A stretch of 64,000 bases of DNA from Furfurilactobacillus milii (GTDB lineage Bacteria > Bacillota > Bacilli > Lactobacillales > Lactobacillaceae): the NCBI RefSeq assembly GCF_009863985.1, contig NZ_WEZT01000015.1:20005-84004 (forward strand), read 5' to 3'. This document shows, piece by piece, positions 7,062 through 31,794 of this stretch. A program made the translations under genes and the position numbers. A model generated the notes under the pieces. The model made no database searches, was not told where the DNA came from, and saw only the letters and a program-made list of their open reading frames with translations. How positions within the stretch are numbered: position 1 is the first letter of the stretch; every line of letters begins with the position of its first letter.

Positions 7062-7240
7062 ATGGTCGTAGATAGCGCCCCGCAACTTTTTTGTTAGTTG
7101 CGACAGTCCTTGGGCTGTTAACCCGAGTCCCAACCCTAACTGAGACGAGTCAGTCAAAGTTTCGGCGAATCATCCTTTCACTAAGCGTCGTTAACCTCGT
7201 CGATTTCCTCTTAGTTACTTTTAATCTTCGCAACCTCTTC
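7062..7240 (-). promoter_or_regulatory. Lysine riboswitch (L box) controlling lysC-dapF
   Basis: The minus strand shows the L-box signature boxes in order: AGAGGTTGCGAAG, AAGTAACTAAGAGG, TAGTGAAAGGATGA, TTCGCCGAAAC, a long arm with GGGACTCGGGTTAAC, then GGACTGTCGC and GGGGCGCTATC closing P1. A perfect terminator follows within 40 nt. In this family lysine binding favours the terminator and turns the operon off. The target operon (aspartate kinase and DapF) fits exactly. Confidence 0.92.
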
Positions 7241-7254
7241 TATGATTACTGGCA

Positions 7255-7383: not shown

Positions 7384-7399
7384 CATTAAAATTAAATGT

Positions 7400-7572
7400 G
7401 AAAAGAGGTTGCAACCAACAAGAGTAATCAGCGGAGTCGGGTCACGACATAGAAACTGATGAAAGGGGCGGTTGCCGAAGCTGGACGATTGACCATCGCT
7501 TTGGCTGGGATGTTGATGAATAATCAGCAAACTGTCGTGATGAAAAATTCATCGCGGGGCGCTTACGACATT
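7400..7572 (+). promoter_or_regulatory. Second lysine riboswitch (L box) controlling lysA-asd operon
   Basis: The plus strand carries a second, divergent copy of the L-box core: AAGAGGTTGCAACC, AAGAGTAATCAG, CTGATGAAAGGGG, GGTTGCCGAAGC, GGCTGGGATGTTG, AAACTGTCGTG and GGGGCGCTTAC. It differs from the minus-strand aptamer in its peripheral arms, so it is not a recent duplication. The terminator at 7597-7640 follows. It controls the seven-gene diaminopimelate operon in the same OFF-with-lysine sense. Confidence 0.9.
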
Positions 7573-29982: not shown

Positions 29983-30162
29983 TGTCAGTATGGATGAGTA
30001 CTCAACATTAATAAATTAATAAATAAACTTTGAAGTTTAGTAAAGACACTACTGATATTAACCAGCTAAAAATATTATGCGGTAATATCACAGTGTACCC
30101 AAAGAGATAAAGATGTTTCCATTTTTACTAGTCAACGGATGTCTGACGTTTGTGAAATTACC

Positions 30163-30191
30163 TTGAATCTTCTTTGGAACAGGGTTATATT
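30163..30191 (+). promoter_or_regulatory. Promoter of the tRNA-like gene pair
   Basis: -35 TTGAAT (30163-30168), a 17-bp spacer and -10 TATATT (30186-30191). The -10 ends 29 nt before the first tRNA-like gene. A weaker candidate (TTAGCG, 17 bp, TATAGT) precedes the second copy. Confidence 0.75.
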
Positions 30192-30220
30192 TTTCTATGG
30201 CGGTATTTTTAAGGCCTTAT

Positions 30221-30306
30221 GGAGAGTTACCCAAGTCTGGTTGAAGGGACACAATTTCGGTTGTGAGGTCAGCAATGACGCAGAGGTTCAAATCCTTTAC
30301 TCTCCT
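30221..30306 (+). tRNA. Serine-type tRNA-like RNA without an anticodon, copy 1
   Basis: This 86-nt class II tRNA fold has a 7-bp acceptor stem (GGAGAGT / ACTCTCC), a D arm CCC...GGG with GG in the loop, a variable arm GTCA-GCAA-TGAC, and a T arm AGAGG-TTCAAAT-CCTTT. The anticodon stem CACAA/TTGTG (30250-30265) encloses only TTTCGG. That is a 6-nt loop or a UUCG tetraloop closed by U-G, with no readable anticodon. The acceptor stem and long variable arm resemble bacterial tRNA-Ser, and SerRS does not read the anticodon. The discriminator is T and no CCA is encoded. It probably cannot translate. Confidence 0.85.
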
Positions 30307-30384
30307 TTATGAATCCATGGTAACGTCGGATTAGCGTTAGTGCCTAGCATTCATATAGTTGCATAATTTAACAGTTGTAAATAT

Positions 30385-30470
30385 GGAGAGTTACCCAAGT
30401 CTGGTTGAAGGGACACAATTTCGGTTGTGAGGTCAGCAATGACGCGGAGGTTCAAATCCTTCACTCTCCT
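30385..30470 (+). tRNA. Serine-type tRNA-like RNA without an anticodon, copy 2
   Basis: Identical to copy 1 except for two bases, which together form one compensatory pair in the T stem: A30282-T30298 in copy 1 becomes G30446-C30462 here. The anticodon loop TTTCGG (30419-30424) is unchanged. It ends 64 nt before the Fem aminoacyltransferase gene and is followed at once by an intrinsic terminator. Retention of structure argues against pseudogene decay. Confidence 0.85.
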
Positions 30471-30472
30471 TC

Positions 30473-30497
30473 TTGGGCATCGAAGTTCGGTGCCTTT
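30473..30497 (+). terminator. Terminator after the tRNA-like pair
   Basis: GGGCATCGAAG / TTCGGTGCC hairpin with a wobble pair, followed by five T. It lies between the second tRNA-like gene and the fem gene. Confidence 0.8.
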
Positions 30498-30534
30498 TTA
30501 ATATCTAACTTTGTAGTATATAAAATGAAATGGT

Positions 30535-31794
30535 GTGAAAACTTTGCAAAAAGTACGCGAATTAACAGTTGAAGAATTCAGAACGTTTGAAGAGAAATGT
30601 CCCTATGGTTCTTTTTATCAATCTGTGGAACAGGGTAACTTGATGCTAAAAGAAGGCCATAAAGCGGTCTATATGGGTCTTGTAGAAAACGATCAGATTA
30701 TCGTTGCCGGATTAATCGTTGGGATGAAGGTGCACTTTGGTTACCGGTTTGACATTTATGGTGGTCCATTGTTTATGCCCGGTTCAGAAACTAAGGCTAA
30801 TTTAGCTGCTTTTGTAAAGCCAGTTGAAAAATATGTTCGTCAGCAGAATGGGATGTTCTTGCGACTGATTCCTAACTTAGCTTTTAAAACATACAAGGAC
30901 GATGGCGAACTAATTGCGAGTCATTTTGACACGTTACCTGCATTATTTAAAGAATTAGGATATAACTATCAGAGTTACCACAGCGCTGGTTATGACGAAG
31001 CAACTCATGTGACCCATTACGAGTATAAAAAAGACGTTCGTGATATGACGGAACAGACGTTGGAAAAAAGCTTCGACAAGAAAGCGCGCTATAACGTTAA
31101 GAAAGCCAAAGAATTTGGTGTTAAGTTACGCGATATTTCTTACGATGAATTACAGGAATTCAAGAAAGATACTGCACTTACGGCTGAACGGTTACACTTC
31201 CCAGATAAGTCACTAGATTACTATCAGAATGTGTACCGTGAGTTTGGTAATAAAGTTCGCTTTGTGGTTGCTGAAATCGATTCAAACGAATATATCGATT
31301 CGTATCAAAAAAAGATTGCTGCTACCGATGATAAGATTGAAGCGCTCAAACAAAAAAACAAGGGCTACGAACAGCATAAAATCGATGACCTTGAACGTCA
31401 AAAGGCTAACCATCAAAAGAAAATCGATGTCGCCAAAGATCTTCAAAAACGTTATCCTGCCAAGTTTAATGTTGCCAGAGCGATGTTTGTGATTCAACCA
31501 CAAGAAATCGATTACGTATTTAGTTACACGAATGAAGAATTCAAAACGTTCAAGGGTCCATTCATGTTGCAAGATGCCATGATGAAGGCCGCTGTTGACC
31601 AAAATATTCCGACGTACAACTTCTTGGGTGTTGCCGGACTCTTCGATGGTAGTGACGGTGTGTTTGAATTCAAACAAGGTTTTAATGGCTACACTGACGA
31701 AATGATCGGTGAATTCTCCAAAGTGTTGATTCCACGGCGTTACAAGTTGTTGAACGCTATTAAGACAGTGTTGGGGCGTAGCAAACGTTTCTAA
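30535..31794 (+). CDS. FemABX-family peptidoglycan bridge aminoacyltransferase
   Basis: Fem/Mur ligases move an amino acid from aminoacyl-tRNA to the Lys side chain of a peptidoglycan precursor. The protein has 419 residues. The N-terminal GNAT-like half contains EEKCPYGSFYQSVEQ and YRFDIYGGPLFMPG. The C-terminal half holds KARYNVKKAKEFGVKLRDI, a two-helix coiled-coil insertion (about residues 260-310, rich in Lys, Gln and Glu) as in FemA and MurM, and NFLGVAGLFDGSDGVFEFKQGF near the end. The start is GTG at 30535 with no good ribosome binding site. Two anticodon-less Ser-type tRNA genes lie directly upstream and are the likely donors. Confidence 0.92.
   Translation: MKTLQKVRELTVEEFRTFEEKCPYGSFYQSVEQGNLMLKEGHKAVYMGLVENDQIIVAGLIVGMKVHFGYRFDIYGGPLFMPGSETKANLAAFVKPVEKYVRQQNGMFLRLIPNLAFKTYKDDGELIASHFDTLPALFKELGYNYQSYHSAGYDEATHVTHYEYKKDVRDMTEQTLEKSFDKKARYNVKKAKEFGVKLRDISYDELQEFKKDTALTAERLHFPDKSLDYYQNVYREFGNKVRFVVAEIDSNEYIDSYQKKIAATDDKIEALKQKNKGYEQHKIDDLERQKANHQKKIDVAKDLQKRYPAKFNVARAMFVIQPQEIDYVFSYTNEEFKTFKGPFMLQDAMMKAAVDQNIPTYNFLGVAGLFDGSDGVFEFKQGFNGYTDEMIGEFSKVLIPRRYKLLNAIKTVLGRSKRF

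Follow-up and report, generated by a model that had tools for sequence, protein, structure and literature searches.

Conserved anticodon-less, serine-type tRNA genes beside Fem ligase genes in the genus Furfurilactobacillus

Diversion of aminoacyl-tRNA to the cell wall

The tRNA-Gly that Staphylococcus aureus sets aside for its cell wall keeps its anticodon. This non-proteinogenic tRNA is proposed to serve FemXAB in the synthesis of the pentaglycine bridge, and it is distinguished by the weak EF-Tu pairs A49-U65 and A51-U63 as well as by changes in G18G19 (PMC4052509). The tRNA genes of Furfurilactobacillus described here resemble it in the proposed supply of Fem ligases and the proposed avoidance of EF-Tu, and A49-U65 and A51-U63 are both present in copy 1 of the window. 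They differ from it in keeping G18G19 (CUGGUU in all 10 sequences), in having a capped hairpin for an anticodon arm, in belonging to class II, in their predicted amino acid, serine, and in lying beside fem genes. For the bridge ligases other than those of S. aureus, the available sections of the same review name no special tRNA; MurM is stated to use alanyl- or seryl-tRNA, the FemX of Weissella to need G2-C71 and to exclude serine through its active site and not through poor recognition of tRNA-Ser, and the diversion of aminoacyl-tRNA from translation to the cell wall to be unclear in most instances (PMC4052509). The two ligases of interest below, fem-B and fem-D, belong to the same FemAB family (PF02388) as FemXAB, MurMN and BppA1-A2.

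An aminoacylated tRNA body without an anticodon is also found in the tRNA-like domain of tmRNA, which carries alanine and works on the ribosome; unlike tmRNA, the RNAs of Furfurilactobacillus are cloverleaves with all arms and have no mRNA-like part. The tRNA-Other of Bacillus cereus likewise resembles a tRNA, stands outside translation and has a cell-wall phenotype, but it has a Trp anticodon, is poorly charged in vitro and is thought to be regulatory, no fem neighbour being mentioned in the available part of its description, which also states that some pseudo-tRNAs serve peptidoglycan synthesis (PMC3399842). Within the open-licence literature that we searched, as far as its accessible text goes, no anticodon-less tRNA beside a fem gene has been recognised. 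Dedicated cell-wall tRNAs are already known in staphylococci; the lack of the anticodon, the serine type and the linkage of a tRNA to its own fem gene were not found in the literature searched.

Anticodon-less tRNA genes and their fem neighbours

The window, by which we mean the whole 64-kb stretch of DNA analysed, contains exactly two tRNA genes detectable by ARAGORN, copy 1 at 30221..30306 and copy 2 at 30385..30470, both 86 nt long, on the + strand and called 'tRNA-???' with no anticodon triplet. They score 42.1 and 42.5 bits against the Rfam tRNA family RF00005 and so lie over its gathering score of 29. Each has a class II cloverleaf as its minimum-energy fold, with UUCG on a 6-bp stem at the anticodon position: in both copies the arm that follows the D arm and precedes the variable arm reads CACAAU-UUCG-GUUGUG, that is, six pairs and a UUCG cap (30250..30265 on the + strand with UUCG at 30256-30259 in copy 1; 30414..30429 on the + strand with UUCG at 30420-30423 in copy 2). 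Since this arm comprises 16 nt, an even number, a symmetric stem cannot leave a normal 7-nt loop, and with no anticodon in the fold no codon is readable. The original prediction had described two 86-nt class II tRNA folds with a short loop or UUCG cap and no anticodon; both the folds and the capped 6-bp stem proved real by ARAGORN, RF00005, the predicted structures and the comparative pairing described below. Copy 1 has the acceptor stem GGAGAGU/ACUCUCC, U73, no encoded CCA, and the T-stem pairs A49-U65, G50-U64 and A51-U63; copy 2 differs from it by a compensatory G49-C65.

Downstream of the pair lies fem-B (30535..31794, + strand), which encodes a FemAB-family aminoacyltransferase of 419 aa when read from a GTG, its start codon being uncertain between 30535 and 30544. 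The protein matches PF02388 with 324.9 bits (cut-off 24) over profile positions 1-405 of 406, i.e., over the full length, and its closest solved structure is S. aureus FemA (1lrz, E 1.2e-41); no NCBIfam model gave it a name. The tRNA genes end 228 and 64 nt before fem-B and begin 314 and 150 nt upstream of 30535, its first possible start, in agreement with the earlier placement of both within 320 nt upstream of a FemABX-family gene. An intrinsic-terminator-like hairpin of 9 pairs with a T tail (30475..30499, + strand) stands between copy 2 and fem-B, and a promoter-like site, TTGAAT-17-TATATT (30163..30191, + strand), precedes copy 1. One terminator-like hairpin was found against 1.3 expected by chance, making this hairpin alone not significant, and the 8 promoter-like sites found are not above chance either (6.4 expected). 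Apart from the two tRNAs, the only Rfam matches over threshold in the window are two divergent lysine riboswitches, at 7064-7247 (- strand, 99.9 bits) and 7395-7572 (+ strand, 84.2 bits), with 5' ends about 150 nt apart.

When the window's own genome (G000) was searched with the tRNA family, 57 matches were obtained, the lowest of which (32.4 bits; G000:C6:6880-6967) is a third tRNA gene without an anticodon according to ARAGORN. It is 88 nt long, differently built and located at a locus unlinked to the pair. Its arm consists of 7 bp capped by UUUU, and the corresponding aligned arm in G001, a second genome of the genus, of 7 pairs capped by UUCG. The minimum-energy folds of this third type are not full cloverleaves: that of G000 is without a standard D stem, and that of G001 is a different structure. 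As in the pair, a 7-nt loop with an anticodon was found neither by ARAGORN nor in the folds.

The neighbour of the third gene is fem-D, also a match to PF02388. In F. milii C5 and F. rossiae DSM 15814, fem-D is intact (418 aa) and divergent to the third tRNA, from which it is separated by about 100 nt. The fem-D of G000 (L067 6073-6696, on G000:C6) has lost its N-terminal half; despite this truncation, the third tRNA, about 40 nt before it and the T-tailed hairpin after it match F. rossiae. This hairpin, recognised by eye 3' of the tRNA (L067 6980-7011), resembles the one at 30475. In G001 the contig with the third tRNA starts with a 22-nt word that recurs near the end of the contig with fem-D; the shared word is compatible with the same arrangement across an assembly gap and is no proof of it.

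Conservation and distribution in and outside the genus

Copy 1 is identical to its counterparts in F. milii FUA3430, F. milii C5 and F. rossiae at 85, 84 and 85 of 86 positions, respectively, and copy 2 at 84, 84 and 83 of 86. In the same three comparisons the spacer between the tRNAs agrees at 53, 52 and 53 of 78 positions and the third codon positions of fem-B at 275, 267 and 269 of 416, which gives 97-99% for the pair, 67-68% for the spacer and 64-66% for the fem third codon positions. All substitutions in the tRNAs preserve the fold (GCAA/GUAA in the variable loop, A-U/G-U in the capped arm and the double change G49-C65/A49-U65). The region upstream of copy 1 (30000-30220) is also conserved in the two other F. 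milii genomes (210 and 211 of 221 positions; 141 of 195 aligned positions in F. rossiae), so the contrast for copy 1 holds against the spacer and fem-B and not against all flanks, and copy 2 makes the clearest case for selection. The likeness of the two copies to each other could be maintained by exchange between them. In 150-base windows, identity to F. milii FUA3430 is 89-100% outside approximately 30300-31350, and within that stretch it drops to 75-84% in all three relatives. The stretch covers the spacer between the tRNAs and fem-B up to two thirds of its length, with copy 2 inside it, and identity rises again after it; judged from these alignments, it is perhaps a divergent, exchanged allele in which the tRNAs have been held nearly constant.

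Taken as single sequences, the window pair folds only mildly better than shuffled versions (z of -1.52 and -1.87). A chance fold is ruled out by the comparative test, in which all 175 of 175 cells, from 25 pairs in the 7 distinct of 10 sequences, are standard pairs, with 4 pairs changed on both sides, against 46-54% paired in controls with slid partners. The shuffle control is inflated by relatedness, and further pair types were no more numerous than in shuffles (357/500); it is therefore the slid control and the compensatory changes that carry the argument for the fold.

Six Furfurilactobacillus genomes were compared, namely G000, G001 (87% complete), F. milii C5, G003, F. rossiae DSM 15814 and F. 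milii FUA3430. The pair and fem-B occur together in G000, F. milii C5, F. rossiae DSM 15814 and F. milii FUA3430, and neither is found in G001 or G003. The third tRNA and fem-D occur together in G001, F. milii C5 and F. rossiae DSM 15814, and neither in G003 or F. milii FUA3430; G000, with its third tRNA and fem-D remnant, is counted with the former. Each tRNA type is thus found only alongside its own fem gene (4/4 for the pair with fem-B and 4/4 for the third type with fem-D), and the second, unlinked pairing strengthens the coupling. A normal anticodon loop at this locus in relatives had been named as grounds for abandoning the idea; F. rossiae DSM 15814, F. milii C5 and F. milii FUA3430 instead carry the anticodon-less pair beside fem-B.

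The fem-B and fem-D proteins are about 37% identical and fall in separate starred clades of a tree comprising 24 of 25 rows (the truncated fem-D was omitted, and the fem-B rows of the relatives have 458 aa, from an upstream start). Their nearest fem relatives are fem-C for B (about 51%) and fem-A for D (about 48%). We take from the tree only that B and D are separate, since the FemX-type rows sit on very long branches; a single origin of the tRNA linkage at B and D may nevertheless be compatible with the tree. No anticodon-less tRNA lies in the fetched flanks of fem groups A, C and the FemX-like E, the last of which scores 397 bits against the FemX alanyltransferase model (cut-off 500). F. rossiae DSM 15814 (G004) has an extra gene, fem-F (L094, G004:C8:41113-42330), about 1 kb upstream of its pair, which was not found in the other five genomes. 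Weak fem-like stretches below cut-off, each with one internal stop, are present in F. rossiae DSM 15814 (G004:C18:43251-43667, 19.4 bits) and in F. milii FUA3430 (G005:C24:45303-45716, 18.2 bits; L107), and perhaps represent a further degraded fem relative.

Outside the genus, a covariance model of the fold (R1) was run on 397 Lactobacillaceae genomes, 391 of them from other genera, drawn from a larger group. Among the matches listed, 12 at 95.9-114.7 bits all belong to Furfurilactobacillus and the next scores 75.9 bits, so that the family-wide search proposed with the original prediction returned comparable matches in this genus only. At least 385 of the 397 genomes have some match at 1e-4, and the best 25 outside loci, when fetched, were each an ordinary tRNA-Ser(UGA), with no anticodon-less gene among them. 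In 398 Bacilli genomes, also drawn from a larger group, only the window's own genome passed E 1e-14. R1 is a search for this fold, and anticodon-less tRNAs based on a different amino acid would escape it. Matches to fem were obtained in 10 of 39 other genera, with a single genome per genus (in one of the ten, below the family cut-off), and none of the 26 fem-match loci (about 16 genes) in these 10 genera has a tRNA within up to 1.5 kb (less at contig ends); Fem ligases there thus work without such neighbours. A mobile origin was considered and rejected: plasmid and phage records yielded no match, and a 28-nt pattern was not found in viral contigs.

Proposed function, serine identity and alternative readings

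Judging from sequence comparison, we consider it quite probable that these conserved anticodon-less serine-type tRNAs are charged by the ordinary SerRS and used only by the neighbouring Fem ligases for the peptidoglycan cross-bridge. With very slightly less assurance, we also regard it as probable that the genus has split its tRNA-Ser into a ribosomal pool and an anticodon-amputated, tetraloop-capped pool for Fem ligases, each beside its own fem gene. The tRNA genes would be transcribed and their products receive CCA, ordinary SerRS would serylate the RNAs, the anticodon not being needed, and Fem-B and Fem-D would donate serine to the lipid II / peptidoglycan cross-bridge. The missing anticodon would shield this Ser-tRNA pool from the ribosome, and the weak EF-Tu pairs of the T-stem might be a second barrier. 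This latter point is suggestive only: A49-U65 and A51-U63 are both present in window copy 1 and in both copies of the three relatives, while copy 2 of the window has A51-U63 only and the third type of G000 has neither; among the ordinary tRNAs, Ser(UGA) and Ser(GGA) share A49-U65 and Ser(CGA) shares A51-U63. With single elements present in ordinary tRNA-Ser, and G49-C65 in copy 2, the T-stem argument is weak. As to the product, an L-Lys-L-Ser-L-Ala2 bridge in F. rossiae, a sourdough species, would, if correct, fit the donation of serine. The F. rossiae bridge entry in one table, as far as that source was available, reads 'not available' (PMC7488000), and the accessible description of F. entadae gives meso-DAP as absent in that species (PMC12397155).

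The alternative that survives best, although we think it unlikely, is that the RNAs are regulatory, tRNA mimics acting in cis or in trans on fem expression with no amino acid transferred, for example as a sensor of SerRS or as a signal for processing or attenuation in which the 30475 hairpin is the switch. It would suit the position of the pair, which occupies the 5' region of fem-B and is separated from the gene by a terminator-like hairpin, and the available text on B. cereus tRNA-Other describes a pseudo-tRNA proposed to be a regulatory RNA with cell-wall effects, albeit one that retains its Trp anticodon (PMC3399842). It agrees less well with the divergent orientation of the third tRNA and fem-D, which are therefore not in one transcript, and with the retention of the acceptor stem, the D and T loops and the variable arm. 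Moreover, a T-box would read the anticodon, which is missing here, and no Rfam T-box reaches threshold in the window, upstream of fem-B or elsewhere.

A clearly more remote alternative accepts serylation but assumes another acceptor, such as a natural product, a lipid or the N-terminus of a protein, and takes the fem neighbour as coincidental or indirect. Aminoacyl-tRNA does have several uses outside translation, according to the sections of the review at hand (PMC4052509), and the third tRNA of G000 has persisted after fem-D lost its 5' half; the intact fem-B of that genome could, however, use this tRNA in trans. That two unlinked loci lie beside fem genes, with presence and absence matched in six genomes (including one fem-D remnant and the 87% complete G001), speaks against coincidence.

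Equally improbable in our estimation is that the Fem role is correct and the amino acid is not serine, another synthetase charging the altered body. The comparison for identity was made with the ten class II tRNAs of G000, four Ser, five Leu and one Tyr; two of the four Ser types (UGA, L071; CGA, L075) have U73 and not G73. The best match of all three anticodon-less types is tRNA-Ser(UGA), with 62/85, 60/85 and 61/87 aligned positions, and for each type the four Ser tRNAs all outrank the five Leu and one Tyr. The acceptor stem is identical to those of Ser(GGA) and Ser(CGA). The doubt arises from U73 in place of G73 and from the variable arm, whose mere 4 bp make it shorter than that of the ordinary tRNA-Ser in this genome; U73, on the other hand, is common to ordinary Ser(UGA) and Ser(CGA). 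AlaRS takes G3-U70 as its signal, which is lacking here since pair 3-70 is A-U, and GlyRS and ThrRS read the anticodon. According to the available part of a review, serine identity does not depend on the anticodon and is determined chiefly by the variable arm, G1-C72 and G2-C71 being conserved, and A73 is a feature for LeuRS and TyrRS (PMC9976931). The anticodon-less tRNAs have the class II variable arm, G1-C72 and G2-C71, and no A73; both the serine type and the independence of SerRS from the anticodon, as originally proposed, thus agree with the published rules, within the text available. Given that the size of the variable arm is the main signal for SerRS and the arm is short, serylation could be poor. 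Each of the six genus genomes has one SerRS match over the model cut-off, and no dedicated second SerRS was found in them, other matches being far below the cut-off.

Finally, decay of tRNA-Ser genes lying near fem by chance, which would account for the absent anticodon in genes dispensable for decoding (four ordinary tRNA-Ser types were found in G000), was rejected and is given practically no weight, as the conservation beside a diverged spacer and the fold-preserving, compensatory substitutions, read from the alignments, argue strongly against it, and as the anticodon is missing in two gene types of different arm length, with fem linkage at two loci.

If the proposed use by Fem ligases is true, the bacterium would gain Ser-tRNA that is not drained by protein synthesis, in a pool whose size is set by its own gene copies. 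It would represent a natural translation-orthogonal aminoacyl-tRNA, obtained by deletion of the decoding part and not only by weakened binding to EF-Tu, and would offer charging chemistry a natural scaffold with no leakage into proteins. For one genus, it would explain how aminoacyl-tRNA is diverted to the cell wall, and removal of the genes would then test this diversion directly in a food bacterium.
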